Source: Rhodovibrionaceae bacterium
Lineage (GTDB): Bacteria > Pseudomonadota > Alphaproteobacteria > Kiloniellales > DSM-21159
DNA: 62,391 nucleotides
Reading direction: 5' to 3'
NCBI GenBank assembly: GCA_028282405.1
Contig: JANQIA010000244.1
Coordinates: 1-62,391, forward strand
Shown piece after piece: positions 1,373-33,141 of this stretch (position 1 is its first letter; the number at the start of each line of letters is the position of its first letter). The notes below the pieces were generated by a model. That model was not told the origin of the DNA, did no database searches, and saw nothing but the letters and a program-made list of their open reading frames with translations. The position numbers and the translations under genes were made by a program.

Positions 1373-1387
1373 TGCGAACGGTTCTCA
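1373..1387. promoter_or_regulatory. Fur-like operator upstream of fecI1: TGCGAACGGTTCTCA
   Basis: Inverted repeat TGCGA-N5-TCTCA; the identical 15-mer recurs before fecI5 and fecI6. Confidence 0.6.
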
Positions 1388-1462
1388 ATAAGGGCCGTTT
1401 GCCTGTGCGACTCCTGGCGCTCTCCGCACCATGATCGTGCCGGCAAGGGTCGGAGGGGAGAC

Positions 1463-1981
1463 TTGACGCTGGGCCAGGACCGAACGGCTGTCAGCTTGTT
1501 CGTGGCGCACCGCCGCGCGCTGGTCGACTATGCGAGCAGCATCACGGGCAGCCGTGCGCAGGCGGAGGATCTCGTCCAGGAGGCCTGGTTGCGTTTCGAC
1601 GAAGCTTCTAAGGGGCGCTTCCTCGAAGACGCGAAAGGCTACCTCTATCGGATCGTGCGGAACCTCGCCGTCGACCAGCATCGGCGAACGGCCCGCGAGC
1701 ATCGGCTGATCTCACGAGACGACCTGGAGCAGGTGGCCGAAACCTGTCCCGATGAGACCCCGACGCCGGAGACGATCGCCCTTTTCAGAGACGAGATTCG
1801 ATGTGTGATAGAGGCCATGGAGGAGCTGCCCGAGCGCACCCGCATCGCCTTCGAGATGCACCGCTTCGGCGGTGCCACGCTCAAGGAAATCGCGGCTTTC
1901 TTGGGCATCTCGGTGTCTCTCGCCCAGATGCTCGTCGTCGACGGCGCGGAGCACTGCAAGCAGCGGCTGGCAAAACGATGA
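1463..1981 (+). CDS. FecI-type ECF sigma factor (cassette 1)
   Basis: Sigma-70 region 2 AEDLVQEAWLRF and region 4 LPERTRIAFEMHRFGGATLKEIAAFLGIS; TTG start preceded by GGAGGGGAG. Confidence 0.88.
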   Translation: MTLGQDRTAVSLFVAHRRALVDYASSITGSRAQAEDLVQEAWLRFDEASKGRFLEDAKGYLYRIVRNLAVDQHRRTAREHRLISRDDLEQVAETCPDETPTPETIALFRDEIRCVIEAMEELPERTRIAFEMHRFGGATLKEIAAFLGISVSLAQMLVVDGAEHCKQRLAKR

Positions 1982-2107
1982 TTGCGCGCCGATGCCAATT
2001 TTGGAACTCACCCTATCGACAAGCGTTTTGTGTATAGAGCGTCTTTCGACGCATGCCTGAAGACCGGGAGTGCAGATGTCTGCTCTCGTCAGGGCTGAGA
2101 GAAGGGC

Positions 2108-3193
2108 ATGGCAGACGATACGGACCATAGCGATTTGAGGGCGCGGCAGGCGTCCAGGGAAGCCAGCGGCTGGATGATCCGCCTGCAGGATGCCCCGGAC
2201 GACGTCGTGCTCCGGCAAGAGTTCGACGACTGGCGCAGCAAGCCGGTGAACGCGGTGGCCTGGGAAGAGACGCAGCGCATGATGCGTGCGGTCGCCGCGG
2301 CGTCGCCGCGCCATGCGTCGAGCTGGGGCCCCTTCTTGAAGCAAGCGCGGACGGGGGCGGACAACGGCGCGACGCCCGACGAAGGGCAGATGCGTCGCAC
2401 GCCGTCCAGCGCTGGCCGCGGCATTGGCGACGCCGCACGCAAGCCGGCGCCGCTCGGCCGCCCGAACCGACGTCGGGCCCTCGGGCTCGCCGCTCTTGCG
2501 GCGGCCGCCTCGATCCTGGCCGTCGTGGCGGCCCCCGAGCTCGCGTTGCACCTGCAGGCCGACTATGCAACCGCCACGTCCGAAACCCGAACCCTGCGCT
2601 TGGCGGACGACAGTGTCGTCACTGTCGCGCCTGCCAGCGCCATCGCCGTCTCCTATAGCGATGGCGCGCGGCAGGTCCGACTGCTCTCGGGCGAGGTCTA
2701 CGTCGAGGCGATGTCCGATGCCGCGCGGCCTTTCCTGGTCTCGGCCGACGACCTTCGGGTCACAGTCCTCGGGACCGCTTTCAATGTCTCGCAGAGCGAT
2801 GACGGAGCCGAGGTCGCTGTGGCGTATGGAGTGGTGCGGGTGGAACAGGACAGCGGCGCCGAGCCTGTCGCGGACGTGCTGACGGCGGGCGAGTTCGTGC
2901 GGGTCAGCCAATCGGGGGCCATCCAGCGCGGACAACAGCCAGCCTCTCAGATCGGGGCCTGGCGGCAGAACCAGCTTATCGCGCAGGACCAGCCGCTTGG
3001 GGAGGTGCTGGACCGGCTGCGGCGCTACCATGCCGGCGCGATCGTCCTAACGGACCGCTCCCTCGCGGACCAGCCGGTTACCGGCGTCTACGATCTCGGC
3101 AAGCCCGTTGCCGCGTTGCGCGCCATTGCCCGCTCCCAGAACGCCGTGGTTCGGGAGATCACACCCTGGCTGCTCATTGTGTCACGCTCCTGA
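2108..3193 (+). CDS. FecR-type anti-sigma/sensor (cassette 1)
   Basis: N-terminal DUF4880-like segment (SGWMIRLQDAPDDVVLRQEFDDWRSKPVNAVAW), one TM, FecR motifs (LLSGEVYVEA, VTVLGTAFNV), STN-like C-terminus. Confidence 0.88.
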   Translation: MADDTDHSDLRARQASREASGWMIRLQDAPDDVVLRQEFDDWRSKPVNAVAWEETQRMMRAVAAASPRHASSWGPFLKQARTGADNGATPDEGQMRRTPSSAGRGIGDAARKPAPLGRPNRRRALGLAALAAAASILAVVAAPELALHLQADYATATSETRTLRLADDSVVTVAPASAIAVSYSDGARQVRLLSGEVYVEAMSDAARPFLVSADDLRVTVLGTAFNVSQSDDGAEVAVAYGVVRVEQDSGAEPVADVLTAGEFVRVSQSGAIQRGQQPASQIGAWRQNQLIAQDQPLGEVLDRLRRYHAGAIVLTDRSLADQPVTGVYDLGKPVAALRAIARSQNAVVREITPWLLIVSRS

Positions 3194-3284
3194 AGTCGTG
3201 TCCGAAAACAAGGGCTTGCAGGGTCGCGGCAACTTTTTTTGGAACCCGGCAACCCCAGTAGCGTTTCTTGACTAGAGACGCGAG

Positions 3285-3299
3285 TGCGTCGCATTCGCA
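3285..3299. promoter_or_regulatory. Fur-like operator upstream of receptor 1: TGCGTCGCATTCGCA
   Basis: Inverted repeat matching the recurring TGCGA-N5-TCGCA pattern. Confidence 0.55.
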
Positions 3300-3355
3300 G
3301 GGCTGCGCGTGCGGCGTCATGCGCTTGGTCGGATAACGCAGAATGGGGATGGGCC

Positions 3356-5779
3356 GTGAGACTGGCGACAACGAAACGAACAAGAATGAACGGCCGTCTG
3401 ATGGCGCTCATAGGCGCTTGGATGGTCATGGCGGCCGCGACAACGTTGGCGATCGCCGCTCCCGCTCATGCACAGGACTCCGGTTCACCGATCCGTCTGG
3501 CACAGTTGTCTATCGAGCGGACATTCGACATCGCCGCCCAGCCCCTCACCACGGCGCTCACCCTGTTCGGCCAGCAGTCCGGCCTTCAGGTCACAGTCCA
3601 CGGCACGCTGCCTAGGGACATGTCTGCACCCGCCGTGCGCGGCACGATGACCAGTGCGGAAGCGCTTGGGCACCTGCTCGCCGGCAGCGGACTGACTTAC
3701 GTTGTCACGGACGAAACGACGGTGGCCATCGAGAGGCCGGGGCAGCAGGGCGACGACGGCGCGATGGCGCTCGGTCCGATCATGATCGAAGGCCAATCCG
3801 AATCCGCCTACGGACCGGTCGATGGATATTTGGCGACGCGCAGTGCCACCGCCACCAAAATGGATGTGCCGATCATCGATACGCCGGCGTCCATCCAGGT
3901 TGTCCCGCGTGCAGTTATCGAGGACCAGGGCGCCACGCGGCTAGCCGATGTGGTGCGCAACGTCAGTAGCGTGCAGGTCAGCGGAGCCAACGGCGGCCGC
4001 AGCGATCTCTTCCTGATACGTGGTTTTGCCGCAAGACGCATTGCCAGGGACGGTTTCCTCTCGCCCTCGTCATTCGGCGACGCCGCGCAACTGGGTCTGG
4101 CCAATGTGGAGCGGGTGGAGGTTCTGAAAGGGCCGCCCAGCATCTTGTACGGCCCCGCCGGCCCCGGAGGGCTCGTCAATATCATCACCAAGAAGCCACA
4201 ACCCGAACCGCGTTACAGCCTCACGGGACGGGCGGGAAGTTTCGATTTCTACAGAGGTGACGTCGATCTCAACCAGCCGCTGACGGAAGACGGCAAGCTA
4301 CTGGCGCGCTTGAACGCGTCTTATGAGAACGCCGACAGTTTCCGGGACCACTTCATCAATTCAGAACGCATTCAGGTCGCACCGTCGCTACGCTGGGTTC
4401 CGACGTCCCGCACGACGGTCGATCTCGATCTTGAGTATTACGACCGGCGTCATCAGTTTGACTACGGCGTGATTGCCGTCGACGGCAAAGCGCCGGCCCT
4501 GCCCCGCGAGCGGTTCCTGGGCGAAGAAAAGGACCGTGTCGACTCCGACGAAATCCGAATCCAGGCGAGCGTCGATCATGGGCTCAATGACGACTGGTCG
4601 CTTCGGGCCCTGGTACGATTCTCCGATACCAATGCCACGCCGACCCAGTCTTTTCCGCTCGGATTGGAAGCTGACGGGCGGACTCTCAACCGGCGTTTCT
4701 TCGTGTTCAACCAGGACTATCAGAACTACGCCCTGCAAGCGAACCTGACCGGCAAGTTCGAAACAGGCCCGCTTGAGCACCAACTTCTCTTCGGCGCGGA
4801 CAGCAACTTCACGCGGTTTGAATCGGAGGCCCGAGCCGCTGATCTCGACCCCATCGACATATTCGATCCGGTCTATGGCGCAACGCCGGGTCCACTCTCA
4901 GCGCCGGGCACGCAGGATCGGCGGATCGATTTCTACGGCGTCTATCTCCAAGACCTGATCTCGTTCGGAGACCATTGGAAACTGCTTCTCGGCGGTCGGT
5001 TCGACACGGCGAAAACGCGGTTCGATCGCAACGATGTCAACGTAACGGACAAATGGGACCAGGCTTTCTCGCCGCGCGCGGGGCTAGTCTATCAGCCGAT
5101 CGACGACATCAGTATCTATGCGAGCTATACGACGTCATTCCTGCCACCCTTGAGCGGCGCAAGCTTCGACGGCGAGGAATTCGAGCCGGAAGAAGGCGAA
5201 CAGTTCGAAATCGGCGTCAAGCGCGATTGGTTCGATGGCCGGCTTTCGACGACGTTGGCCGCCTATCAGTTGACACGCTCCAACGTCTCGACGGCCGATC
5301 CTCAGAACCCGACCTTTTCGATACAGGTCGGCGAGCAACGCAGCCGTGGCGTCGAATTCGATGTCGCCGGCGAACTGGCGCCGGGATGGAACGTAATAGG
5401 TTCGCTCGCCTACCTCGATGCGGAGGTCACCAAGGACAACACGCTCCCCGTCGGCAATCAGCTCGTAAACGCGCCGAATTGGAGCGGCAGTCTTTGGGCG
5501 ACATACGCCTTTCAAGGTAGTCCTCTGCGCGGGCTCGAGATCGGCGGCGGCGTCTTCGTGGTCGGCGACCGAAAAGCCGACTTCGCCAATCAGGTCGATG
5601 TCGATGGATACGCACGGGTCGATCTGTTTGCCCGTTATGAGATCAACGACAACATCAGCTTGGCGCTCAACATCGAAAATCTGTTCGACAAGAAATATGT
5701 CGAGGGCGTGGACGATCCGAATTTCGTCGACGTTGGCGCGCCCCGCTCCGTGTTCGGCACGGTCCAGGTCAAGTTCTAA
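3356..5779 (+). CDS. TonB-dependent siderophore-type receptor with N-terminal STN signalling domain (cassette 1)
   Basis: Signal peptide, STN domain (FDIAAQPLTTALTLFGQQSGLQV), plug (TPASIQVVPRAVIEDQGATRLADVVRNVSSVQVSG..., LKGPPSILYGPAGPGGLVNIITKKP), C-terminal ...GTVQVKF; start moved downstream of the operator. Confidence 0.9.
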   Translation: MRLATTKRTRMNGRLMALIGAWMVMAAATTLAIAAPAHAQDSGSPIRLAQLSIERTFDIAAQPLTTALTLFGQQSGLQVTVHGTLPRDMSAPAVRGTMTSAEALGHLLAGSGLTYVVTDETTVAIERPGQQGDDGAMALGPIMIEGQSESAYGPVDGYLATRSATATKMDVPIIDTPASIQVVPRAVIEDQGATRLADVVRNVSSVQVSGANGGRSDLFLIRGFAARRIARDGFLSPSSFGDAAQLGLANVERVEVLKGPPSILYGPAGPGGLVNIITKKPQPEPRYSLTGRAGSFDFYRGDVDLNQPLTEDGKLLARLNASYENADSFRDHFINSERIQVAPSLRWVPTSRTTVDLDLEYYDRRHQFDYGVIAVDGKAPALPRERFLGEEKDRVDSDEIRIQASVDHGLNDDWSLRALVRFSDTNATPTQSFPLGLEADGRTLNRRFFVFNQDYQNYALQANLTGKFETGPLEHQLLFGADSNFTRFESEARAADLDPIDIFDPVYGATPGPLSAPGTQDRRIDFYGVYLQDLISFGDHWKLLLGGRFDTAKTRFDRNDVNVTDKWDQAFSPRAGLVYQPIDDISIYASYTTSFLPPLSGASFDGEEFEPEEGEQFEIGVKRDWFDGRLSTTLAAYQLTRSNVSTADPQNPTFSIQVGEQRSRGVEFDVAGELAPGWNVIGSLAYLDAEVTKDNTLPVGNQLVNAPNWSGSLWATYAFQGSPLRGLEIGGGVFVVGDRKADFANQVDVDGYARVDLFARYEINDNISLALNIENLFDKKYVEGVDDPNFVDVGAPRSVFGTVQVKF

Positions 5780-5815: not shown

Positions 5816-6175
5816 TTGGCCAAATCCCCGGGATTGTCAGCAATGCCATGCGTCGGATCAAACATGGCACACCGGTTTTCACCGGCGTCGTCCTGGCGAA
5901 TGGTGCAACGTCTGCTCCTCGCAATCGCCGGTGGCTATTTCTTGGCCGCCGGCTTTGCGGCGCTCATGTCTTTGGCGCTGTCCAGAGTCATGCCACCGAG
6001 CGAAGCCGCTACGCTCATGGCGATGCCCGCGTTCGTTATCTATTTTGCCTTGCTGTTGTGGAGCTTTGCCGAACGGTGTTTGACGCGGCTTTGGTGGGTG
6101 TTGGGCCTTGGCGGAGCGCTCGCCTTCGGGGGCGCGGAGATGTTGCCCGCGCTGACAGGGGCGCCTCGTGGGTGA
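5816..6175 (+). CDS. Small membrane protein, DUF3649-like, between TBDR and PepSY gene
   Basis: Hydrophobic; position TBDR-small protein-PepSY-small protein is a known arrangement; start uncertain. Confidence 0.55.
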   Translation: MAKSPGLSAMPCVGSNMAHRFSPASSWRMVQRLLLAIAGGYFLAAGFAALMSLALSRVMPPSEAATLMAMPAFVIYFALLLWSFAERCLTRLWWVLGLGGALAFGGAEMLPALTGAPRG

Positions 6176-7715
6176 CACCTTTCGGGAATCCATGGGCTGG
6201 CTGCACACCTGGGCAGGCGTCGTGCTTGGAGCGCTCCTCTTTGCGGTTTTCTGGACCGGGACCCTGTCCGTCTTCGACAAAGAGATCGACCGCTGGATGA
6301 TGCCGGAGACGCGGCTGGCGGCGACCGACCGGCCTTCCTGGCCCCCCTTGCTCGACACCGCGCGCGAACTGGCTCCCGACGCCCCGTTCTGGAGTTTCTT
6401 CCTGCCAAGCGAGCGCGTCCCGGTGGTCCGGATTTTCTACCGGAATTCGGCCGGTGATTTCACCTTCCGCGACATCGAACCACGGACCGGCGTTTTGCTG
6501 CCCGATGCCGGAACCTTGGCGGGCACGCGGTTCATCTTCCCGTTTCACTACAGTTTGCATCTGCGATGGAACGACCTCGGCTACTGGCTGGTCGGGCTTG
6601 CGGGCATGGCGACGCTGGTGCTGCTGCTTTCCGGCGTCGTCATCCATCGCAAAATCTTCATGGATTTTTTCACGTTCCGGCCGGACAGAAAGTTGCCGCG
6701 GTCCAGTCTGGATCTGCACAATCTCACAGGCGTCCTGGCTCTGCCGTTTCATTTCGTAATGGCGCTCTCCGGACTGATCATTTTCTTCACGATCTATTTC
6801 CCAACGGTTGTTTCGATCGCCTACGACGGCGACCGGGCCGCCTTCAATCGCGATGCCTTCGGCAGCTTCCAGCGGGACGCGGCGGGCGTGCCAGGATCGC
6901 TGGCCCCGCTCGATCGGATGGCGGCCGAGGCGACGCGTATTTGGGGCGGCGAGCCACCTTACTTCGTGCGCGTGTGGCATCCAGGCGACGTCAGCGCGAC
7001 GGTGGAGATGCGCCGCACTGTTGCCAGGTCGGTGGATTTGAACGTCGACGCCGTGCATTTCGACGCAGCGACGGGCGAGGTTCTGCGGACGCACGCCGCC
7101 GCGCCCGTCGTCCATGTGCAGCGCTTTATCGCCGGACTGCACTTCATCCAGTTCGAGCACTGGCCGCTGCGCTGGATCTACTTCCTGCTCGGCCTCTCCG
7201 GCTGCGTCATGATCGCGACCGGCTATATCTATTGGTTGGAGACGCGCCGTAAACGCCACGCTGCGCAAGGTCTGCCAGGCGTGCGCATCGTCGAAGGACT
7301 GACCGTAGGCTCCGTCTCCGGAATCGTCATTGCGACGCTTACCTTTTTCGTGACCAATCGGCTGCTGCCGTTCGATACGAGCTTCGTCGGCCAAGATCGT
7401 GCGGCCCTCGAAGTCTGGGCCTTCTATCTCGTCTGGCTCGTCACTTTCGCCCATGCCTGGGCTCGGCACGGCCGGGCGTGGCGGGAACAGTGCTGGGCGA
7501 TTGCGGGTCTGGCGGTGCTGGCCGTCGTGCTCAACGCCGCGACGACCGGCGATCATCTGGTCCGCTCGCTTGCTCATCGGCATCTCTGGCCGGTCGCCGG
7601 CATGGATCTCCTGTTGCTCTTCGGCGCGGCGGTCGCGCTCCTCACCGCGCTGCGCCTCGCCCGGAGAGGCAGCGCCCCAGGTCCGTCGCAAGACGCGCTG
7701 AAGGAGGCAGAGTAG
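6168..7715 (+). CDS. PepSY-domain TM protein (putative siderophore-iron reductase)
   Basis: MGWLHTWAGVVLGALLFAVFWTGTLSVFDKEIDRW, LHLRWNDLGYWLVGLAGMATLVLLLSGVVIHRKIFMDFF, HNLTGVLALPFHFVMALSGL. Confidence 0.85.
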   Translation: MGDTFRESMGWLHTWAGVVLGALLFAVFWTGTLSVFDKEIDRWMMPETRLAATDRPSWPPLLDTARELAPDAPFWSFFLPSERVPVVRIFYRNSAGDFTFRDIEPRTGVLLPDAGTLAGTRFIFPFHYSLHLRWNDLGYWLVGLAGMATLVLLLSGVVIHRKIFMDFFTFRPDRKLPRSSLDLHNLTGVLALPFHFVMALSGLIIFFTIYFPTVVSIAYDGDRAAFNRDAFGSFQRDAAGVPGSLAPLDRMAAEATRIWGGEPPYFVRVWHPGDVSATVEMRRTVARSVDLNVDAVHFDAATGEVLRTHAAAPVVHVQRFIAGLHFIQFEHWPLRWIYFLLGLSGCVMIATGYIYWLETRRKRHAAQGLPGVRIVEGLTVGSVSGIVIATLTFFVTNRLLPFDTSFVGQDRAALEVWAFYLVWLVTFAHAWARHGRAWREQCWAIAGLAVLAVVLNAATTGDHLVRSLAHRHLWPVAGMDLLLLFGAAVALLTALRLARRGSAPGPSQDALKEAE

Positions 7716-8318: not shown

Positions 8319-8321
8319 GAT

Positions 8322-8336
8322 TGAGAAGCGTTCTCA
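8322..8336. promoter_or_regulatory. Fur-like operator upstream of fecI2: TGAGAAGCGTTCTCA
   Basis: Inverted repeat TGAGAA-GCG-TTCTCA. Confidence 0.65.
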
Positions 8337-8386
8337 TTTAAGTTAGGACTTTCAGTGCGAGACTTTTTGGGGATGCTGGGTTTTCG

Positions 8387-8884
8387 GTGCGGCACAGCGA
8401 GGTCAGACGCTTCTATGCAGAGCACGGTGAGGAGCTGCAACGCTATCTGACCCGGCGGCTGAACTGCGCCCAAACCGCGGCGGATCTGACGCAGGAGGTC
8501 TTCCTCCGATTGCTGCGCAGCGAGTCCGCCGGCAGCGTGAACAACCCGCGCGCCTATCTCTATCGCATCGCTTCGAACCTGCTGGCCGACCACTTCCGCG
8601 GCGTGACGCAGCAGCCGCGTCTCGTCGGCACGACCCTGTGGGAGACGGTTCCCGACGAAACGCCGAGCCCGGAACGAACGCTTCTGAGCCGCGACGAGGT
8701 GCGGCGCCTTGAACGAGCCATAGACAGGCTGCCGTCGCGCCAGCGCGAAATCCTGTTGCTTCACAAGTTCGAAGGCCTCAGCTACCGCGCGATCGCCGCG
8801 CGCCTCGGCATCTCCGAGAACACGGTCATGGTGCATATGATGCGGGCGCTGGCGCGATGCCGCGATGGCATATCTGAAGATTGA
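8387..8884 (+). CDS. FecI-type ECF sigma factor (cassette 2)
   Basis: AADLTQEVFLRLL; LPSRQREILLLHKFEGLSYRAIAARLGISENTVMVHM. Confidence 0.88.
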   Translation: MRHSEVRRFYAEHGEELQRYLTRRLNCAQTAADLTQEVFLRLLRSESAGSVNNPRAYLYRIASNLLADHFRGVTQQPRLVGTTLWETVPDETPSPERTLLSRDEVRRLERAIDRLPSRQREILLLHKFEGLSYRAIAARLGISENTVMVHMMRALARCRDGISED

Positions 8885-9011: not shown

Positions 9012-9995
9012 GTGATGCGTGAAGACGGCGAGCCTTCGGCGAAAGACGCGGCGGCCGAGTGGTTCGCGCGCCTGCGCCACCACGCCGTTTCCGATGAGGA
9101 CCGAGCCGCGTTCGAGGCCTGGCGTGAAGCCGACCCGGCCCATGCCGAGGCCTACCGGGAGATGGAGCGGCTCTGGGCCGGGCTCGACCAGATCGAGCGG
9201 CCTGCGCCCGGCCGAGATCGCGGCGACCCTGCGCGCACGGCAACGATCGGCCAGGCGCCCCTCCGCCGTCGGCTCGCCCTGCGGCGCTTCGCCATCGCCG
9301 CCTCTGTCGCGGCACTTGCTTGTGTCGGTGCATACGGCCTCGCGCCCCCGGGTCTGCTTGCCGATCACCGGACGGGTTTCGGCGAGCAGCGCGAGATCGT
9401 GTTGCAGGACGGCTCGACCGCTCATCTCAACACGGCAAGCGCCCTGACCGTCGAGTTCACCAGCGGCAGCCGGCGGGTCGTTCTGCAAGCGGGCGAAGCC
9501 TACTTCGAGGTTGCGAAAGACAGCGCGCGCCCCTTCATCGTCGAGGCCGGCAGCGGACGCATTGAGGCACTCGGCACCGCCTTTTCCGTCCGGCTTGCCG
9601 ACGACGCGGTCGAGGTGATCGTGACCGAGAGCCGGGTCGCGGTGTCCGCGCCGGGCCAGGACAGCAAGCGCCTCGCGGCCGGCCAGGGCCTCCGCTTCAG
9701 CGACAGCGGACTTGGCGAGGTCGCCGAGGTCGATGCGGCGACGGCGCTCGCCTGGCGCCGCGGCCGAATGGTCTTCGACAACCAGCCGCTTGGCGAGGTT
9801 CTGGCCGAGCTCGCGCGCTATCGGCAAGGCCGCATCCTGGTCCTGGACCCCGAGGTCGAGTCGCTTCCCGTCACAGGCTCCTTCTCCATCGCGGACACCA
9901 ATGCGGCGCTCAATACGATCGAGCGGATATTGCCGCTACGCCTGCGCCGCTTCGGCGACCTCTTGGTTCTGGTCGCCGCCGAGCCGGCGCGATAG
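9012..9995 (+). CDS. FecR-type anti-sigma/sensor (cassette 2)
   Basis: AAEWFARLRHHAVSDEDRAAFEAWREADPAHAEAY; VLQAGEAYFEVAKDSARPFIVEAGSGRIEALGTAFSV. Confidence 0.9.
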   Translation: MMREDGEPSAKDAAAEWFARLRHHAVSDEDRAAFEAWREADPAHAEAYREMERLWAGLDQIERPAPGRDRGDPARTATIGQAPLRRRLALRRFAIAASVAALACVGAYGLAPPGLLADHRTGFGEQREIVLQDGSTAHLNTASALTVEFTSGSRRVVLQAGEAYFEVAKDSARPFIVEAGSGRIEALGTAFSVRLADDAVEVIVTESRVAVSAPGQDSKRLAAGQGLRFSDSGLGEVAEVDAATALAWRRGRMVFDNQPLGEVLAELARYRQGRILVLDPEVESLPVTGSFSIADTNAALNTIERILPLRLRRFGDLLVLVAAEPAR

Positions 9996-10085
9996 TCCGG
10001 CGAAGCGAAAGGCAGCCGCAGCAAAAGATCCTCTCGCCGCCGTGTAATGGTCCGACCAACGAGCTCCGTCTTCTCTACTGACAAA

Positions 10086-10106
10086 TGCGACTAAGACGCA
10101 TTCGCG
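10086..10106. promoter_or_regulatory. Fur-like operator upstream of receptor 2: TGCGACTAAGACGCATTCGCG
   Basis: Overlapping half-sites of the recurring motif. Confidence 0.5.
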
Positions 10107-10158
10107 TATAGCTCTGCGCGACTGGCGGTCTTGGCGACAGGGGAACGAGGGGCCGGTA

Positions 10159-22164: not shown

Positions 22165-22680
22165 GTGCCGCAGGACAGGATACTGGCCCTTTACCTGGCC
22201 CACCGCGGCGCCTTGGTGAACTACGCGAACGGCATCGTCGGCGATCGGGCGCGGGCCGAGGATGTGGTGCAGGAGGCATTTCTGCGTTTCGCCGCAACCC
22301 GGGAAAAGCCCGACGAGGCGATCGAACGTCCGCCCGCCTATCTCTATCGGATCGTCCGCAACCTTGCGATTGACAGAACGCGGCAGCGCACCCGAGAGGA
22401 GCGCCAGCAGGGTGAGGAACCGGCGTGGTGGATGCTGCCCGACACGCCGAGAACGCCGGAGCAGGAGGCGCTTCATCGCCAAGAGCTCGCCCGCATTTCC
22501 TCGGCGCTCGAGGCGCTCTCGCCCGAGGCCCGGCTGGCCGTTGAGATGCACCGCTTCGGCGGCTACACCTTGAGCGAGATTGCAGACCGCTTGAACATCT
22601 CTGTCGCCACAGCCCACCGTCTGGTTCGGGGCGCCATGGTCAAGATCGCCTTGCGGCTCGGGGCGCAAAGCGATGAGTGA
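22165..22680 (+). CDS. FecI-type ECF sigma factor (cassette 5)
   Basis: AEDVVQEAFLRFA; LSPEARLAVEMHRFGGYTLSEIADRLNIS; GTG 22165 preferred over ATG 22075, which would overlap the operator. Confidence 0.85.
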   Translation: MPQDRILALYLAHRGALVNYANGIVGDRARAEDVVQEAFLRFAATREKPDEAIERPPAYLYRIVRNLAIDRTRQRTREERQQGEEPAWWMLPDTPRTPEQEALHRQELARISSALEALSPEARLAVEMHRFGGYTLSEIADRLNISVATAHRLVRGAMVKIALRLGAQSDE

Positions 22681-23814: not shown

Positions 23815-23879
23815 CCGGCAGAACAGCGAAGTTTGCCGCCGTGAAAAAAAAGTCCGCGCGCCTCGTCATGCAACAGGAG

Positions 23880-23900
23880 TGCGAATGATAGGCATTCGTA
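23880..23900. promoter_or_regulatory. Fur-like operator upstream of receptor 5: TGCGAATGATAGGCATTCGTA
   Basis: Inverted repeat TGCGAATG...CATTCGTA. Confidence 0.6.
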
Positions 23901-23925
23901 ACTCTGCGTGCAGATGGGAGGGCAC

Positions 23926-26403
23926 ATGGGACAGAGGGAAAGAGCGGGTTCGGCGCCAGTGGGGCGCAGAGCGGCAGAATACAGAGCGGTCGGGCTGCGG
24001 TCGGCAGCGGTGGGGCTTGCGATGACGATCGTCGGTGTTCCGGTACTGGCGCAAGAGGGGCGCCCGGCGGAAACATGGAATGCCGGCAAAGCTCCTTATG
24101 CGACCATCGCGCAGTCGGCCGGCGCGACGGCCCAGCCGACCATCCGCTTCGACATTGCCAGCCAACCGTTGCCCACCGCACTGCTTGTATTCGGCCGGCA
24201 ATCCGAGCTGCAGGTCACGGTCGACGCCGCGGCCACGGCGGGCAGGCAAGCCCCGGCAGTCGTCGGAGACTTCACGGCGGAGGAGGCTCTCTCACGCCTG
24301 CTTGCCGGCTCTGACCTCACCTGGCGCTTTGTTGATGCCTCGACCGTCACGCTAGAGCGGGCGGTGGCCGAGCCAGAGAGCGGGCCGCTGCGGCTGGGCG
24401 ACATCACCGTCACCGCCAGGCGCACTGAGGAACTGGTGCAGGACGTGCCCGGCAGTGTGCTCGTGTTGCCGTCCCAGGAGATCGAAGAATCGAACATCGA
24501 GGATCTCGAGGACTTAGCCCTGTTCACGCCGAATTTGAATCTCGGCGATACGGGCGAGCGGCGCTTCATCGACATATCCATCCGCGGCATCTCCAACTTG
24601 ACGGGGACCCAGACAAGCGGGCCGACTGTCGGCGTCTACTTGGACGAGGTGCTATTAAACCCGACCGGTTCCACGATCGGCGTCGATCCGAACCTCTTCG
24701 ACCTGGAACGGGCGGAGGTGCTCTACGGTCCGCAGGGCACAGCCTTCGGTCGCGGCACCATCGGCGGCGCGATCAACTACGTGACCAGGAAACCGACGGA
24801 GGACTTCGAGGCGGAGATCGACGGCGAGGTCGGCAGTCATCCGGACGGTCTGGTGCGCGGATTGGTCAATGGTTCGCTGACCGGCGACCGCACGCTCATG
24901 GCGCGGCTGGTCGCCTTCGGGCGCTACGACGACGGCTTCATCGACACGCCGAACATCGGCGGCTCGAACGATGAGCAGGATTACGGCGGCCGGCTCAGCC
25001 TGCGTTCGCAGCCAACGGATCGCCTGACGCTCGACCTCGCCGGCTCCTTCGACCGCACGATATACCGTGTCCCCAATCTCGCGACGCGGGACAGCATCGA
25101 GGGTGACGACAATCTCGAGTTCCTCGTCACGAGAGACGGTGAACACCGCATCGACCGCGGGCTTGTGACCTTTCGCGGCGCCTATGACTTCGATGCCGGT
25201 ACACTGATCTCCAACACGTCCTACCTCGACACGGAAGTAAAGGCCGATAGCGACGCGGACCTGACCGAGTTCGACTCAGGCTTCAGCGAGCGGCCCAGCA
25301 CGGAGTCTGCAATCGGGCAGGAAATACGCTTCGAATCCGAAGCCTTCTCGGTACCGCTGTTGGGGCAGACCAGCTTTTTTCTCGGCGCCAATGGCACCTG
25401 GGCTGACGAGACCACTAGATTTAAAGGGTTCGCCCCTAACGGCGTGCTTGGCTTTGAGATCGATACGGGCAGGGAGGTGTTTGACATCGGCAGCTTCGGT
25501 GAAGTGCGTTTCCGCCCGATCGAAAAGCTTGAAGTCGCAGTCGGCGGGCGCTTCACCTACAACGAGGTCACGGTATCCCAAGCGGGCTTCGAGGATGCCA
25601 GCCAGTCCTTCACCAACTTTTCCCCGAAAGCCAGCCTCCTCTACGATTGGACCGACGACCTCAGCACCTATGCCTTGGTTTCTACCGGCTTCAAGTCGGG
25701 CGGCTTCAACGCGCTGGGAACGGGCGCCTTGTCCGGGCGTGAATTCGACAGCGAAACGGCGATCAACTATGAGGCCGGCGTCAAGTCGCGCTGGTTCGAT
25801 GATCGACTCTTCGTCAACGCCTCCGCCTTTGCGCTCTTCTATGACAATATTCAGGTTCCCGAGACCATCGCTGTGGGCCTGAGCAACGTGACAGCCCTCG
25901 ACAATGCCGCCTCCGCGCGCAGTCTTGGCGGTGAACTGGGTGTCGCGGCTTTGCCGCTGGAGGGTTTGCAGCTCAACTTGAACTATGGCTATGCGGACGC
26001 ACGCTTTACCGACTACGAAGACTCGCCCCGAGGTGATTTGAGCGACGAGCCGCTGCCGAATGCGCCGCGCCACACCCTGAGCTTCATCGCGGACTACGCC
26101 CATCCCGTCTTCGACGATTTCGCCGATGCCTTCATCCGCAGCGAGTACAGCTTCACCAGCAGCTTCAAGAACGTCCTCGCACCCACCCGGCCGAATTTCG
26201 ACGCCTACGACGTGCTCAATCTGCGGATTGGATTGCGCGCCGACCGTTTCGATATCGAAGCCTTCGTCGAAAACGTCTTCGACGAGATCTACGTCACCGG
26301 TATCACGGGTGCCAGCGGCTTTACCGACGCACTCGGCGTTTCCGAGCCCTTGGAAGTCGGCACCACCCGCCGCTTCGGCGTCAGGGCGCGGGTGCGGTTC
26401 TGA
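23926..26403 (+). CDS. STN-domain TonB-dependent receptor, close paralog of receptor 4 (cassette 5)
   Basis: STN (FDIASQPLPTALLVFGRQSELQV), ITVTARRTEELVQDVPGSVLVLPS, YGPQGTAFGRGTIGGAINYVTRKPT; ATG 23926 preceded by GGGAGGG. Confidence 0.88.
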   Translation: MGQRERAGSAPVGRRAAEYRAVGLRSAAVGLAMTIVGVPVLAQEGRPAETWNAGKAPYATIAQSAGATAQPTIRFDIASQPLPTALLVFGRQSELQVTVDAAATAGRQAPAVVGDFTAEEALSRLLAGSDLTWRFVDASTVTLERAVAEPESGPLRLGDITVTARRTEELVQDVPGSVLVLPSQEIEESNIEDLEDLALFTPNLNLGDTGERRFIDISIRGISNLTGTQTSGPTVGVYLDEVLLNPTGSTIGVDPNLFDLERAEVLYGPQGTAFGRGTIGGAINYVTRKPTEDFEAEIDGEVGSHPDGLVRGLVNGSLTGDRTLMARLVAFGRYDDGFIDTPNIGGSNDEQDYGGRLSLRSQPTDRLTLDLAGSFDRTIYRVPNLATRDSIEGDDNLEFLVTRDGEHRIDRGLVTFRGAYDFDAGTLISNTSYLDTEVKADSDADLTEFDSGFSERPSTESAIGQEIRFESEAFSVPLLGQTSFFLGANGTWADETTRFKGFAPNGVLGFEIDTGREVFDIGSFGEVRFRPIEKLEVAVGGRFTYNEVTVSQAGFEDASQSFTNFSPKASLLYDWTDDLSTYALVSTGFKSGGFNALGTGALSGREFDSETAINYEAGVKSRWFDDRLFVNASAFALFYDNIQVPETIAVGLSNVTALDNAASARSLGGELGVAALPLEGLQLNLNYGYADARFTDYEDSPRGDLSDEPLPNAPRHTLSFIADYAHPVFDDFADAFIRSEYSFTSSFKNVLAPTRPNFDAYDVLNLRIGLRADRFDIEAFVENVFDEIYVTGITGASGFTDALGVSEPLEVGTTRRFGVRARVRF

Positions 26404-26484
26404 AGGGCGCCGCCTTGCTTGGCCTGTCCTGCGGTCGCCCCACAGCGAGGTTGCGCCGCTGTGCCCCGGTCTCTAAGACCAAAT

Positions 26485-26499
26485 GCGAACGGTTCTCAA
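26485..26499. promoter_or_regulatory. Fur-like operator upstream of fecI6: TGCGAACGGTTCTCA
   Basis: Identical to sites before fecI1 and fecI5. Confidence 0.62.
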
Positions 26500-26569
26500 G
26501 TGGCCGCGACATTCGGAAGATGGGTGCTCGGCCCAACAAGAGAACGGGAGCAAGGACGGCGTCGGCAGC

Positions 26570-27079
26570 GTGGCGCAGGACAGGATACTGGCCCTTTACC
26601 TGGCCCACCGCGGCGCCTTGGTGAACTACGCCCACGGCATCGTCGGTGACGCCACCCATGCCGAGGATGTGGTTCAGGAGGCTTGGTTGCGTTTTGGGGC
26701 GGCGGCGAAGGGCCGGCCGCTCGAGGAGCCTGTCGGCTATCTCTACCGCATCGTCCGGAACCTTGCGATCGACAGCTATCGGAGACGCCAGCGGGAAGAG
26801 CGGGTGGTCGAGCCGGAGGCAGACGAGACTCTCCGCGCGACCTTGGATGAGGCGCCCTCGCCGGAAGCGGCCGTTGCCGCAAAGGACGAGCTGCGGCTTC
26901 TCAGCGAGGCCATGGCGGAATTGCCGGAGCGCACTCGCATCGCCGTGGAAATGCGGCGCTTCGGTGGCTGCAAGCTGAAGGACATCGCCGCGCATCTCGG
27001 CATCTCCGTCACCCTCGCCCACGAGCTGGTTGCCGAGGGTATCGCCCACTGCCGCCGCCGCGTGCGTCCTGGCTCATGA
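26570..27079 (+). CDS. FecI-type ECF sigma factor (cassette 6)
   Basis: AEDVVQEAWLRFG; LPERTRIAVEMRRFGGCKLKDIAAHLGIS; GTG 26570 preferred over the ATG overlapping the operator. Confidence 0.85.
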   Translation: MAQDRILALYLAHRGALVNYAHGIVGDATHAEDVVQEAWLRFGAAAKGRPLEEPVGYLYRIVRNLAIDSYRRRQREERVVEPEADETLRATLDEAPSPEAAVAAKDELRLLSEAMAELPERTRIAVEMRRFGGCKLKDIAAHLGISVTLAHELVAEGIAHCRRRVRPGS

Positions 27080-27206
27080 TCGACTTCTCGCGATTTACCC
27101 GAAAAATGGCCCGCTCCAAACGTTTAGTGATTGGGAGACCGCTTCGGCGGTGCCTAGACGGGCACCAAACAGTCGACTGCAAAGCGATGGCGGTCAGGGG
27201 TCGAGC

Positions 27207-28259
27207 ATGACGACGTCGGAGGAAAACAGGGACCGCGCGACGCTGGAGGCCGCGCGCTGGGTGGTGACGCTGGAAGAGCATCCCGGCGATGCGGCGCTGC
27301 GCGCCCGCTTCGAGGACTGGTTGTCGGCCAGTCCGGAGAATGCCGTCGCCTGGGCCGACAGCGCCGACCTCTACGACATGATGGCGCAGACGCCGCCGGC
27401 CCATGCCGAGCACTGGGCGCCTTACCTTGCCGAAGGCGGTGAGGCGAAAGCGGCAAACCTCGACGCCAAGAAACAGGACGTGCCAGGGCGACGACGGCCC
27501 GCGACCGCACGCCCTCGGCCGCGACGGTCAGTCGGGCGCCGCATCGCACTGGGGGGTGCCGCCATTGCGCTCGCGGCCTGTATCGCTGTTTTCGTCCTGC
27601 CGCTGCTGCTGCTGCGGCTGGAGGCGGACTACATGACTGCAACCGCCGAACTGCGGTCGTTCGATCTGGCCGACGGCAGCAGGGTGCAACTCGCGCCGGC
27701 CAGCGCCCTGACCGTCGACCTCGACGGGGTGGGGCGCGTCGTCCGCTTGCTGGAGGGACAGGCTTACTTCGAGGTCACGCCCGATCCAGCCCGGTCGTTT
27801 CGTGTCACTGCCGGCGATGTGACGGCAGAGGTGATCGGCACCGCGTTCGACGTGCGCCTGGGGGAGCGGGGCGCCGCCGTCGCCGTCGGCGAAGGCCAGG
27901 TGGCCGTGGACTTTGCGGCGGCAGCACCGTCGGACGCGCAGGACCTGCGGGCCGGGGACTGGGTCCAGGTTGGCTGGGACGGGAGCCTGCGGCGCGGCAG
28001 CGCACCGCCCGACGAAGCCGGCTCTTGGCGCCAAGGCCAGATCGTCATCCGCGACCGGCCGCTGGCGGACGCGGTGGACGACCTGCGGCGCTACTACGCC
28101 GGTCTTATCGTCGTGACCGATGACGCCCTGGGGGCGCGGCGGTTGTCGGGCGTCTACAACCTGGCCGACCCGGTAGCCGCCCTCACCGCCATGGCCGGCG
28201 TGCACGACGCCGTGGTGCGGCAGATTTCGCCTTGGGTTCTGGTGATCTCCCCACGCTGA
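27207..28259 (+). CDS. FecR-type anti-sigma/sensor (cassette 6)
   Basis: EAARWVVTLEEHPGDAALRARFEDWLSASPENAVAW; LLEGQAYFEVTPDPARSFRVTAGDVTAEVIGTAFDV. Confidence 0.88.
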   Translation: MTTSEENRDRATLEAARWVVTLEEHPGDAALRARFEDWLSASPENAVAWADSADLYDMMAQTPPAHAEHWAPYLAEGGEAKAANLDAKKQDVPGRRRPATARPRPRRSVGRRIALGGAAIALAACIAVFVLPLLLLRLEADYMTATAELRSFDLADGSRVQLAPASALTVDLDGVGRVVRLLEGQAYFEVTPDPARSFRVTAGDVTAEVIGTAFDVRLGERGAAVAVGEGQVAVDFAAAAPSDAQDLRAGDWVQVGWDGSLRRGSAPPDEAGSWRQGQIVIRDRPLADAVDDLRRYYAGLIVVTDDALGARRLSGVYNLADPVAALTAMAGVHDAVVRQISPWVLVISPR

Positions 28260-28327
28260 AGCGCGCATCCGAAATTTTCTCCCGAAAAATCCGAGAGCCC
28301 TGTCGTTGCCTAATCGAAGGGTGCAGT

Positions 28328-28342
28328 TGCGACGCATTCGCA
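28328..28342. promoter_or_regulatory. Fur-like operator upstream of receptor 6: TGCGACGCATTCGCA
   Basis: Perfect TGCGA-N5-TCGCA. Confidence 0.65.
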
Positions 28343-28388
28343 GCGACTCCCCGTAGCGGTCGGCAAGAACAACGAATGGGACACAACG

Positions 28389-30734
28389 ATGGGGGCATTG
28401 GTGCAGGCTCGGAGGGCAGGGGACTGGAACGTCTGTCGCAGTCTCTTGGTGATCACGGCGATGCTGGCGAGTTCGGCTCTGACGCCCCCGACCCAGGCGC
28501 AAGGCGCGCCGCAGACGATCGCGCAGGCGCAGCAGACGGACTTCGACATTCCACCGCAAGCGCTCACCGATGCGCTGGCGCTGTTCGGCCGCCAGTCGGG
28601 ATTGCAGGTCTCCGCCGACGCCGCGCTTATCCAGAACATTCAGTCACCCGGTGTGACCGGGACCCTGTCGCCGGAACAGGCGCTCGGTCGACTGCTCGCT
28701 GGAACCGGCATCGCCTACCGCATGATCGGCGGCAACACGGCCCTGCTCGACCGCGCGTTGGTTGAGGAGGAAAGCGGGCCGGCGCGGCTCAACCCCCTGA
28801 TCGTCACGGGAGAGCGGATCGAGCGCACGGTCTTCGAGACGCCGTCTTCGGTGGTCGTGGTGACAGGCGAAGAACTCGAGGACACGCCAGCCTTCAATGA
28901 CGTCGACAATGTGCTCGATTTCATTCCCAACATTGTTGGCGGTGGCACCTCCGGCGACGGGCCGACGATCCGGGGGATAGACACGACGGGCGAGCTTATC
29001 GGAGCAAACGGCTTTCTTGGCGGCGCGCGGCCGCGCGCGACCATCACCGTGGACGGGCGCCCGCTCAGCTACAATGAGTTCATCTACGGAGAGACCTCCG
29101 TTTGGGATTTGGAGCGCCTAGAGGTCTTTCGCGGACCTCAGACCAGCGCCCAGGGTGTGAACTCGATTGCCGGTGCCATCTATGTCGTTACCGCCGATCC
29201 GACCTTCGAGCCGGAGGTGAAGGTGCAGGGCGAGGTCGGCAATGAAAATCGGCGTCGGCTATCGGCGGCCTTCTCTGGCCCTATTGTGGCGGACGAACTC
29301 GCCGGTCGCGTCGCGGTCGATTTTCAGCGTCGCGATTCTTTCGTCGATTTCGACGTAGCCCTGGAAGATGGCCCGCCCATAGACGAGTTCGAGAGTATCG
29401 TCGCGCGTGGGAAACTGCTCTGGCAGCCGAACGCATTGCCGGACTTGTCCACAAAAGTCACCTTCAGCTTCAATCAGACGGACACCCCCCAAGCGGAGTT
29501 CGTGACAGTCCCTTTTCGAGACCTCAATGCGGGTCCCGCCGCGACGTTTCCTACCAAGTCCTACAGTGGCATTCATGATCTGAGCTATGCCTTTTCCGAC
29601 AACTTGGAGGTCAGCAACCGCTTCTCCGCTACCGGCACCAAGATCGAACGCTTTGCCGTGACTGACAGCTTCGGCCGCGGCGATATTGATGGGTTGCAGT
29701 TCACCAACGAAACAACACTGAACTGGCGATTGCCGGACCACAATTTGAGCGGGCTGCTCGGTGCTTACTATCAAAACGACAACACCGATGAGTTCATCGA
29801 TTTCTCGGCCTTTCTCGGTATCGGTGAGTTCGAAGATACGCAGACCAGCGTGGGGCTATTCGGTGAAGTGAACTATCAGGTTACGGAGCGCCTCGATGTC
29901 ACGGCAGGCCTGCGCTATCAGCGCGACAGTCAAGACCGCGATGGCACCATCGGCGCCTTCACCGTCGACTTCGACAAGACCTTCGATGCCCTTCTGCCGA
30001 AGTTCGTTGTCGGCTATGACGTCTCCGACGAGCTGCGTGTCGGCGCCCTGGCCGTGCGCGGCTTCAATCCCGGCGGCACGACAATCTTCTTCGCGGACGG
30101 GGCGCAGGACACCTTCGACGCAGAGACGGTTTGGAACTTCGAGTTGTTTGGCCGCGCACGCCTGTTGGACAACCGTCTCGCCCTTGATGCCAATGCCTTC
30201 TATGCCCTCTATGACGACTTTCAGACCATTGCGATCAGAGGCTTCGACCCCATCGGGAATCCGGAATTCGAAGTCGGCAACGCCGACCGAGCTACTAGCT
30301 ACGGCCTGGAGTTAAGTGCCGACTTGCAGGCAACGGATGACCTGCGCATTTTCGGTGGGCTCGGCCTACTGGATACCGAGATCGTCAACTTCCCGGACTC
30401 GGCTGACCCGAACATCGAGGGGAATCAATTCGCGCGCGCGCCGCACGTTACAGCGTCCGGCGGCGCGAGTTACGAGGTGATCGACAACCTGACGCTTGGG
30501 GGTCGCGTGCGTTACGTCAGCAGCTACTTCAGCGATGACAACAACACGCAAGGGCAAAAGGCAGGCGACTACATCGTCGCCGACTTCCAGCTTAGCTACG
30601 TTTACGAAGCCGTCGAGGCCTATGCCTTCGTCAACAATGCCTTCGACGAGTTCTACCTGATCAACGATGTCGGCACACTCGCCATCGTTGGAACGCCGCG
30701 CGAGTACGGCGTGGGGCTGCGTGTCTCGTTCTGA
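28389..30734 (+). CDS. STN-domain TonB-dependent receptor (cassette 6)
   Basis: STN (FDIPPQALTDALALFGRQSGLQV), LIVTGERIERTVFETPSSVVVVTGEELED, plug and barrel; ends VGLRVSF. Confidence 0.86.
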   Translation: MGALVQARRAGDWNVCRSLLVITAMLASSALTPPTQAQGAPQTIAQAQQTDFDIPPQALTDALALFGRQSGLQVSADAALIQNIQSPGVTGTLSPEQALGRLLAGTGIAYRMIGGNTALLDRALVEEESGPARLNPLIVTGERIERTVFETPSSVVVVTGEELEDTPAFNDVDNVLDFIPNIVGGGTSGDGPTIRGIDTTGELIGANGFLGGARPRATITVDGRPLSYNEFIYGETSVWDLERLEVFRGPQTSAQGVNSIAGAIYVVTADPTFEPEVKVQGEVGNENRRRLSAAFSGPIVADELAGRVAVDFQRRDSFVDFDVALEDGPPIDEFESIVARGKLLWQPNALPDLSTKVTFSFNQTDTPQAEFVTVPFRDLNAGPAATFPTKSYSGIHDLSYAFSDNLEVSNRFSATGTKIERFAVTDSFGRGDIDGLQFTNETTLNWRLPDHNLSGLLGAYYQNDNTDEFIDFSAFLGIGEFEDTQTSVGLFGEVNYQVTERLDVTAGLRYQRDSQDRDGTIGAFTVDFDKTFDALLPKFVVGYDVSDELRVGALAVRGFNPGGTTIFFADGAQDTFDAETVWNFELFGRARLLDNRLALDANAFYALYDDFQTIAIRGFDPIGNPEFEVGNADRATSYGLELSADLQATDDLRIFGGLGLLDTEIVNFPDSADPNIEGNQFARAPHVTASGGASYEVIDNLTLGGRVRYVSSYFSDDNNTQGQKAGDYIVADFQLSYVYEAVEAYAFVNNAFDEFYLINDVGTLAIVGTPREYGVGLRVSF

Positions 30735-31062: not shown

Positions 31063-31111
31063 TCTGCTGTTCGGCTGTCGGGCGGGGATGTAACGGGATG
31101 ACGGGTCTGGG

Positions 31112-32701
31112 ATGATTGCCCTTTCGCAAAGGCGGACCAAGCGGCTTGTGGCAATTCATGGCTGGTCCGGCACCGTGCTGGGCCTGTTGCTTTACGTCGT
31201 GCTGCTGACCGGGGCGGTGGCGGTCTTCGCCCTGCAGATCGGGAGCTGGTCGGCCAGCGGTGTGAAGTCGCAGCAGCCCTTCGCGCAGCCGCTCGACGGC
31301 ACCTTGCGGGCCCTGGCCGCGCAGGTGCCCGCCGAGTACCGCGACGACATTGGTGTCTTCTCCAACTCCGCGGGTCACATCGTCGCCTTCCTGCATGCCC
31401 ATACCAAGGATGCAGACGGCGAAATCGGCGACAAGGGCGTCCTCTTCGAGCTGCATCCGGAGACCCACGAAATCTTGGCGCAGCGCGAGGGATTCGCCGC
31501 CGACGTCTTAGGCGCGGACCCCTGGGGGGCGCTCGACGACTTTCTGGTGGACCTGCATATCAACCTGCACCTGCCGGACCCCTGGGGCCTCTATGCCACT
31601 GGCGTGCTCGGGCTCCTGATGCTGGCCTCGGCGATCTCCGGCATCCTCATCCATCGGCACCTGATCAAGGACCTCTTCGTCGCGCCGCGTTTCTCCAGCC
31701 TGCTGCTCAACGCCCGCGACCGGCACAACCTGGCGGGTAGCTGGGGCCTGCCCTTCGCCATCGTCCTTGCCTTCACCGGCGCCTTTCTCAGCTTCGCCCT
31801 CTCGCTCGGGCTGCCGACTGTCAGCACGGTGGCCTTCGGCGGCGACCATGCCGCCATGATCGAACGTCTGGTCGGCGCGCCCGAGGCCGCCGATCCGACC
31901 CCGGCGCCGCTCGCCGACATCGATGTCATGCTCGCTGCTTCCGCCAAGGCGGCAGGTTCCGCTCCAACCGGCTTTTCGGTGCATCACTGGGGGCGGGCCG
32001 ATGCCACCGTCACAGTGTTCCATGAACCGCCCGAGGGCGACCTCACCGTCGCCCAGCAGGTTTTCGACGGAGTGAGTGGGGTCCATCTAGGTTCGAAGCC
32101 GCCCCTCGGCACCGAACCTTCGGTCGGGAGCGCGGTCTTCCAGCTAATGATCCCGCTGCATTTCGGCACCTTCGCCGGGATGCTGTCGCGGACCGTGTGG
32201 TTCGCGCTTGGCTTGGCGATGTGCTATGTCACGCTGACCGGGCTGCAGCTCTGGCTGCAGCGGCGGTCGGACGAACCGCTCTGGCGCCACCTAGCCCGCG
32301 CGGTCCCGATCTTCGGCTACGGCCTGCCCATCGCCATCGCCGGCAGCGGCATTGGCTTCTTCCTCAGCCTGCCGGCAGACAGCACCCTGTTCTGGACCCC
32401 CGTCGGTTTCCTGATCGCAGCCGCTCTGGCTATCGCCGCGGGGCTGGCCGTGCGCCAGGACAGGACGCTGTCGCAGCTCTATCGGCTTATGCTGGGCGTT
32501 TCGCTGATCGCGCTGCCGCTGCTGCGCATGGCCATGGGCGGGGCCGGCTGGGAAGCGTTGGCTGCCAGCGACAACACCGCCATCGCGATCTTCGATCTCG
32601 TGCTGCTCTTGGCCGGTGCGAGCTTTGTGCTCGCGGCAATCGGCCGGCGCTTGCCGGGCGTCAAGACAGCGCGCGTGACCGAGCGGGTCCCCGCGGAGTG
32701 A
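31112..32701 (+). CDS. PepSY-domain TM protein (putative siderophore-iron reductase)
   Basis: TKRLVAIHGWSGTVLGLLLYVVLLTGAVAVF, LHINLHLPDPWGLYATGVLGLLMLASAISGILIHRHLIKDLFV, DRHNLAGSWGLPFAIVLAFTGAF. Confidence 0.86.
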   Translation: MIALSQRRTKRLVAIHGWSGTVLGLLLYVVLLTGAVAVFALQIGSWSASGVKSQQPFAQPLDGTLRALAAQVPAEYRDDIGVFSNSAGHIVAFLHAHTKDADGEIGDKGVLFELHPETHEILAQREGFAADVLGADPWGALDDFLVDLHINLHLPDPWGLYATGVLGLLMLASAISGILIHRHLIKDLFVAPRFSSLLLNARDRHNLAGSWGLPFAIVLAFTGAFLSFALSLGLPTVSTVAFGGDHAAMIERLVGAPEAADPTPAPLADIDVMLAASAKAAGSAPTGFSVHHWGRADATVTVFHEPPEGDLTVAQQVFDGVSGVHLGSKPPLGTEPSVGSAVFQLMIPLHFGTFAGMLSRTVWFALGLAMCYVTLTGLQLWLQRRSDEPLWRHLARAVPIFGYGLPIAIAGSGIGFFLSLPADSTLFWTPVGFLIAAALAIAAGLAVRQDRTLSQLYRLMLGVSLIALPLLRMAMGGAGWEALAASDNTAIAIFDLVLLLAGASFVLAAIGRRLPGVKTARVTERVPAE

Positions 32702-32991
32702 CGGCGCTTATCACCCTGACGGCCGTTGTCATGACGCTGTCGGGTCTCATCTACCTCACGATAACCGATCCCAAGCGGCGCCGGGCTTTCCAGCTTGGAC
32801 CGCGAGATCGCTGTTTCGCAATCCCCGCCTATTTTCTGGTTTTCGGGCCGGGGCCAGCGCTTCTGATCGCCGGTGAGGGCGCGGCCTTCGTTATCTGGCT
32901 CGGTTTTGCCACCATTGCTGGATGGCTGATCGCCGCTCGGACGCCCACTGCGACCAAACTGGCCGTTAAAGGCAGGCGAGATCGTGATTGA
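32698..32991 (+). CDS. Small membrane protein, DUF3325-like
   Basis: GTG overlaps the PepSY stop (GTGA); TM-rich; same position as 7721-8107. Confidence 0.5.
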   Translation: MTALITLTAVVMTLSGLIYLTITDPKRRRAFQLGPRDRCFAIPAYFLVFGPGPALLIAGEGAAFVIWLGFATIAGWLIAARTPTATKLAVKGRRDRD

Positions 32992-33105
32992 TGGTAGGGG
33001 TTCGGCGCCCGAGGAACGTCATGAGTTAACGATGACTCTCAAGGGTGCCTTGCTCTGCGCACCGGTCGGCCCAGACACTGCGTCACAGCAATTGCCGTTG
33101 AAAAC

Positions 33106-33141
33106 TGCGGTCATTCGTGATGAAACTGCGCATCATTCGCA
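33106..33141. promoter_or_regulatory. Two tandem Fur-like operators (TGCGGTCATTCGTGA, TGCGCATCATTCGCA) upstream of exbB
   Basis: Two copies of the recurring motif, starts 21 bp apart. Confidence 0.6.

Follow-up and report, generated by a model that had tools for sequence, protein, structure and literature searches.

Predicted Fur operators in a cluster of FecI-type cassettes

A 62,391-nucleotide stretch of DNA from a Rhodovibrionaceae bacterium (the window; contig C63 of a 5.08-Mb assembly of 536 contigs that is 88% complete) carries six head-to-tail cassettes at 1.4–30.7 kb, each with genes for a fecI-like extracytoplasmic function (ECF) sigma factor, a fecR-like protein, and a TonB-dependent receptor with an STN domain. 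They are followed by exbB-exbD-exbD-tonB at 33.2–36.0 kb. Short inverted repeats precede the fecI genes, the receptor genes, and exbB, and the best explanation, with a probability of about 0.8, is that these repeats are Fur operators, at which Fur would repress the fecI-fecR, receptor, and exbB-exbD-tonB promoters with a two-input logic. The sites, their genome-wide family, their position relative to promoter-like elements, and their conservation are read directly from the sequence.

An initial annotation of this DNA had placed Fur-type operators upstream of every fecI and every receptor gene in the window, an arrangement that is supported by the motif, by matrix scores, and by a match to the footprint of Fur from Magnetospirillum gryphiswaldense (MgFur). 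The genome-wide motif is the 15-mer TGmGAATnATTCkCA. The motif search over the genome for which the annotation had called found it enriched, with 122 matches compared with 27 for a reversed control (at most three mismatches to TGCGAATGATTCGCA in the whole genome, 69+53; reversed pattern, 12+15). A first matrix, symmetrised and trained on the claimed sites, was used to confirm 13 of them; with this matrix, trained on the sites themselves, 16 window positions reach at least 12 bits, compared with a mean of 1.6 in 20 dinucleotide shuffles. A held-out matrix was built from 12 motif sites that lie neither in the window nor in any cassette, and its top ten positions across the window are all claimed sites. 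None of 94 equal-length control stretches from nine genomes (this one and eight relatives) reaches 10 bits with the held-out matrix.

The predicted operators are listed with their held-out matrix scores and, for receptor genes, with the CGTC or CGTT that lies upstream.

1371–1389, forward strand: fecI, cassette 1 (15-mer 1373–1387; 14.9 bits; box 15/15 identical in the same-genus genome G001)
3277–3302, forward strand: operator array, receptor, cassette 1 (overlapping registers 3279/3285; CGTT 3262–3265; box kept 15/15 in G001)
8320–8338, forward strand: fecI, cassette 2 (18.0 bits)
10084–10108, forward strand: receptor, cassette 2 (14.7 bits; CGTC 10067–10070; third half-site ATTCGC with 6/6 match; box kept 14/15 in G001)
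12971–12989, forward strand: fecI, cassette 3 (24.4 bits)
14812–14836, forward strand: receptor, cassette 3, with third half-site (24.3 bits; CGTC 14798–14801)
17873–17897, forward strand: fecI, cassette 4 (overlapping registers 17875/17881, 12.5 and 14.2 bits)
19512–19530, forward strand: receptor, cassette 4 (18.9 bits; CGTC 19493–19496)
22074–22092, forward strand: fecI, cassette 5 (15.2 bits; box kept 15/15 in G001)
23878–23902, forward strand: receptor, cassette 5, with third half-site (21.8 bits; CGTC 23864–23867; box kept 15/15)
26482–26500, forward strand: fecI, cassette 6 (15-mer at 26484; 15.2 bits)
28326–28344, forward strand: receptor, cassette 6 (13.3 bits; CGTT 28304–28307)
33125–33146, forward strand: exbB-exbD-exbD-tonB (19.6 bits)

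Thirteen of the 14 sites in the initial annotation are thus present (12 in cassettes and one before exbB). The operator reported at 26485 exists, and its correct coordinate is 26484. The weakest site of the set is 3285 (9.4 bits in this register and 10.2 bits in register 3279). A second exbB site at 33106 was rejected: it scores −16.4 bits with the held-out matrix, compared with 19.6 for 33127, and is at most a single half-site, out of register with 33127.

Fur as the probable regulator

The genome encodes four Fur-family proteins: one Fur, one Irr, and two Zur-like proteins. Its Fur aligns over the full length with MgFur (4RAY/4RAZ; E 4.5e-61) and is closest to Rhodospirillales-type Furs, with best matches labelled Rhodospirillaceae, Rhodovibrionaceae, Tistlia, and Pelagibius. 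The DNA-reading residues of MgFur have been reported (PMC4506495), and in the alignment all of the inspected contact residues (K15, T17, Q19, R20, T54, Y56, and R57) are present. The MgFur footprint on feoAB1, TTAATCGCAACTCATTCGCAATTGC (PMC4506495), matches the window motif. It is independent of the window, and its single best match there is the operator at 12971–12989 (3 mismatches in 19); within 6 mismatches it finds 10 window positions, seven of which fall on claimed sites. Like Fur boxes, the sites are palindromes of the GAAT-N-ATTC type with half-sites in a 6-bp register. Because the genome encodes a close MgFur relative in which the inspected contact residues are kept, and because the footprinted operator matches the motif, the regulator of the repeats is almost certainly Fur.

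Binding by Irr or another Fur-family protein, such as one of the two Zur-like proteins, is very unlikely. The genome has an Irr gene (NCBIfam IrrA, 203 bits; cut-off 150), and a GAA-N3-TTC core is common to Irr and Fur boxes, but a pattern search for the known Irr box, TTTAGAA-N3-TTCTAAA, found no match in the window contig; the best Irr-box sites in the genome lie on contigs C15 and C350, and the window motif matches the MgFur footprint. On C350, two adjacent Irr-box-like palindromes with one and two mismatches lie 27 bp apart (L113/L116; G000:C350:14079-14122).

Neighbours of the non-cassette motif sites include a HemS/ChuX-type haem gene, exbD, and genes for ABC transporters, periplasmic binding proteins, and a stand-alone TonB receptor; a few motif sites adjoin genes without an obvious iron link. 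A strong Fur-type box (L030:7208; G000:C487:22207) is followed after about 220 bp by an open frame of 2198 codons, the N-terminal part of which matches SpvB and FG-GAP domains.

Predicted operators are placed differently on fecI and receptor promoters

Promoter geometry was compared at 77 related sites, 43 on the fecI side and 34 on the receptor side. On the fecI side, the operator lies on a sigma-70-like promoter in either of two fixed geometries (32/43). In class A (22/43), the left arm of the operator is the −35 element (TTGmGA), with TA at exactly 17 bp (the next-best spacing has 6). In class B (10/43), a TTGCGN-17-TAnnnn promoter ends 4 bp before the operator. Class A geometry is found at only a few non-cassette Fur-box sites and is thus not a general rule. 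The promoter-like elements of the window are as follows.

Cassette 1, class B: −35 TTGCGG 1340–1345, −10 TAAGTG 1363–1368, just upstream of the operator
Cassette 2, class A (operator 8322): −35 TTGAGA 8321–8326 within the operator, 17-bp spacer, −10 TAGGAC 8344–8349
Cassette 3, class A (operator 12973): −35 TTGAGA 12972–12977 within the operator, 17-bp spacer, −10 TAGCTT 12995–13000
Cassette 5, class B: −35 TTGCGC 22043–22048, −10 TAAGAC 22066–22071
Cassette 6, class B: −35 TTGCGC 26451–26456, −10 TAAGAC 26474–26479
exbB: CTGCGC as −35, 17 bp, TAAACC 33149–33154, overlapping the operator in class A geometry

At the cassette 4 operator (17875), no promoter of class A or class B was recognised.

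Neither of these geometries was found at receptor-side sites (0/34). There, CGTC or CGTT lies 12–27 bp upstream of the operator at 31/34 sites, compared with 5/43 on the fecI side and with 6/34 receptor-side sites in the adjacent window further upstream. CGTC is a usual ECF −10 element and may mark an ECF-type promoter before the receptor genes, although the −35 element there is weak. A start 6–9 bases downstream of CGTC would put the receptor operator at about +3 to +25. Overlap of the Fur box with a promoter or start is seen at the 32 fecI-side sites and, on the receptor side, is judged from the position of CGTC.

The initial annotation had taken an operator before each receptor gene to imply a second, sigma-independent input. 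Such an operator is what would be expected of a plain Fur-regulated sigma-70 receptor gene, and a Fur-type box accompanies at least one stand-alone TonB receptor gene of the genome (L024 at 9294). A weak or differently spaced sigma-70 promoter may be present at some receptor genes. With neither of the two sigma-70-like geometries at receptor sites and an ECF-type element upstream of 31/34, the receptor operator is therefore no evidence for a sigma-independent promoter, and it is unlikely that each receptor gene has its own Fur-repressed sigma-70 promoter giving basal, iron-regulated receptor besides the sigma-driven promoter. Most simply, the receptor operator would block the sigma-dependent promoter itself, and Fur would be a second iron input there with no separate route.

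The receptor repeats could also be the initially transcribed region of the ECF promoter, or an activator site, instead of a repressor site. They lie at about the expected start, and their centres are more variable than those on the fecI side; in E. coli fecA, mutations downstream of the start lower transcription and the downstream region is required (PMC9249621). But the receptor sites score with a matrix derived from non-cassette sites, they carry third half-sites in register as Fur boxes do, and they lie at variable distances from CGTC (12–27 bp), unlike a promoter element, which makes this alternative quite unlikely.

The two operator classes also differ in sequence, although the class contrasts were found post hoc among related sequences and their P values are indicative only. 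The reported bias towards TCTCA at fecI and TCGCA at receptor genes is real: the right arm is TCTCA at 20/43 and TCGCA at 15/43 fecI-side sites, compared with 0/34 and 18/34 on the receptor side (20:15 vs 0:18, Fisher P = 1.7e-5, uncorrected for relatedness). A third half-site in the exact 6-bp register that is typical of classical Fur boxes (at least 5/6 matches) was found at 24/34 receptor-side and 13/43 fecI-side sites; in the flank that follows receptor operators, extra half-sites occur at offset 0 in 16/34 and at none of offsets 1–15. MgFur binds feoAB1 as one dimer and the Pseudomonas aeruginosa box as two (PMC4506495), and additional half-sites could therefore recruit more Fur. The palindrome fit is better on the fecI side, however, and the graded affinity that the initial annotation had suggested, if it exists, could run either way.

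Predicted operators and their conservation in relatives

Among 47 fecI-fecR cassettes from the nine genomes, 43/47 fecI-side and 31/46 receptor-side promoters have a site of at least 10 bits (held-out matrix). The receptor-side operator is common, not universal, and its absence agrees between likely counterparts in two congeneric genomes (the first cassettes of L022 and L082, and L034/L087). Between these two genomes, fecI boxes are kept at 107/120 positions, compared with 453/656 in their flanks, and receptor boxes at 84/90, compared with 368/487.

It is extremely improbable that the pattern merely reflects recent duplication of cassettes, with no selection on the sites. The fecI promoters of cassettes 5 and 6 (22043–22095 and 26451–26503) are near-identical over about 50 bp, which points to a recent duplication of that cassette. 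Yet a site is kept where the flanks have diverged (at 28328, in receptor cassette 6, the box matches its likely counterpart in G001 at 14/15 positions and the flanks at only 26/81), and sites are present in other families of the order.

Several points weigh against Fur repression of all three kinds of promoter. The 12 sites of the held-out matrix were found with a window-derived consensus, and this matrix is not fully independent. The match to the 15-bp palindrome is poorer at receptor sites than at fecI sites (median 16.2 vs 19.5 bits), and the ECF −35 element is poorly defined at receptor promoters. The Fur site of E. coli fecA lies upstream (−36 to −17), whereas the operator here is downstream of the ECF −10. 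Several cassettes have no receptor-side site, including in this genome the first cassette of C135 and that of C159. Because the cassettes share ancestry through duplication and descent, the counts and P values do not represent independent events.

Proposed mechanism

From these features we infer Fur binding, repression, start sites, and two-input logic as follows. Iron-loaded Fur would repress three layers: the sigma-70-like fecI-fecR promoters, the ECF-type receptor promoters, and the exbB-exbD-tonB operon. At low iron, Fur would leave and the FecI-type sigma factor and FecR would be made; a ligand signal from the receptor, passed through the STN domain and FecR, would then let the sigma factor turn on the receptor promoter. 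The receptor operator lies a short way downstream of the putative ECF −10, at or slightly beyond the expected start; Fur bound there would block that promoter and would also stop read-through from fecI. The receptor would thus need both low iron and ligand, and could be shut off directly when iron returns even with active sigma factor left.

It is possible, though doubtful, that the two operators are built differently for function, with operators on the fecI side that are for the most part single palindromes joined to the −35 element or start and, on the receptor side, operators downstream of the ECF −10 that often have a third half-site. Fur may then act as a block to the start site or to early elongation on the ECF promoter, and sigma factor genes and receptor genes may be released at different iron levels.

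Genes of the window and related clusters

The window cassettes have the gene order of FecIRA cell-surface signalling (ECF sigma factor, FecR, TonB receptor with N-terminal STN domain). STN domains are above the Pfam cut-off in five of the six receptors, and that of cassette 1 is below it (23.5 vs 28.4 bits). The genes are listed below; start codons of the fecI-like and fecR-like genes are uncertain.

1463–1981, forward strand: fecI-like ECF sigma factor, cassette 1 (Pfam Sigma70_r2/r4_2, hidden Markov model search of the window)
8387–8884, 13093–13617, 17968–18522, 22075–22680, 26483–27079: fecI-like paralogues, cassettes 2–6
2108–3193, forward strand: fecR-like, cassette 1 (Pfam FecR, same search)
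9012–9995, 13687–14730, 18480–19457, 22792–23814, 27030–28259: fecR-like paralogues, cassettes 2–6
3284–5779, forward strand: TonB-dependent receptor with STN, cassette 1 (Pfam plug/barrel/STN)
10159–12873, 14877–17615, 19563–21995, 23908–26403, 28389–30734: receptor paralogues, cassettes 2–6 (Pfam plug/barrel/STN)
33211–35989, forward strand: exbB 33211–34002, exbD 33962–34399, exbD 34404–34808, tonB 34694–35989 (NCBIfam matches)

The true start of the cassette 1 receptor gene is later than 3284, since the listed GTG falls within the operator. PepSY-associated transmembrane proteins are encoded after receptor genes at 6168–7715 and 31112–32701 and are possibly reductase-type uptake partners. 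The remaining window encodes ordinary metabolism (38343–44550, 45310–46944, and 58860–60716, including branched-chain-type ABC transporter genes, fumarase, and a TRAP transporter), and no Fur-type site stands out in these regions. The same genome has a second cluster of three fecI-fecR-receptor cassettes (L022; G000:C135:1-16124) and, counting C135, C159, and C262, at least 11 such cassettes.

Relation to known systems and significance

In E. coli, the fecI and fecA promoters are both Fur-repressed and have Fur sites (Enz 1995, Angerer and Braun 1998, reviewed in PMC9249621). As is proposed here for the cassettes, fecIR-fecABCDE combines sigma-70-driven fecIR with a FecI-driven receptor operon and Fur sites at both promoters; it is present in one copy, with an ABC transporter in the receptor operon, whereas here there are six tandem cassettes, and the E. 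coli Fur box differs in sequence from the motif. The Fur of M. gryphiswaldense is closely related, shares the inspected contact residues, and has a footprint of the same type (PMC4506495), but the MgFur target is feoAB1, not a FecI cassette, and is bound by one dimer, while many receptor sites here have a third half-site. In Aeromonas salmonicida AsbI/fstB, the receptor promoter depends on an ECF sigma factor and has a Fur site that was positive by titration assay, and double control by Fur and an ECF sigma factor is also found in other siderophore receptors (PMC10253897). The AsbI/fstB receptor promoter is under both regulators, as is proposed for those of the cassettes; the operon layout differs, and the Fur site there was placed by titration assay only.

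Fur sites at both fecI and receptor are an already known wiring, here well supported and largely ordinary. Three things set the cassettes apart from the known systems: where the receptor operator lies, how the half-sites are arranged, and how many cassettes stand in tandem. The sites chart where Fur is predicted to control repeated FecI-type cassettes in Rhodospirillales-like bacteria, and their fixed geometry, on the sigma-70 promoter at fecI and downstream of the ECF −10 at the receptor, predicts how iron and ligand signals would combine. With the paired sites one can ask if the order of release depends on the operator sequence.

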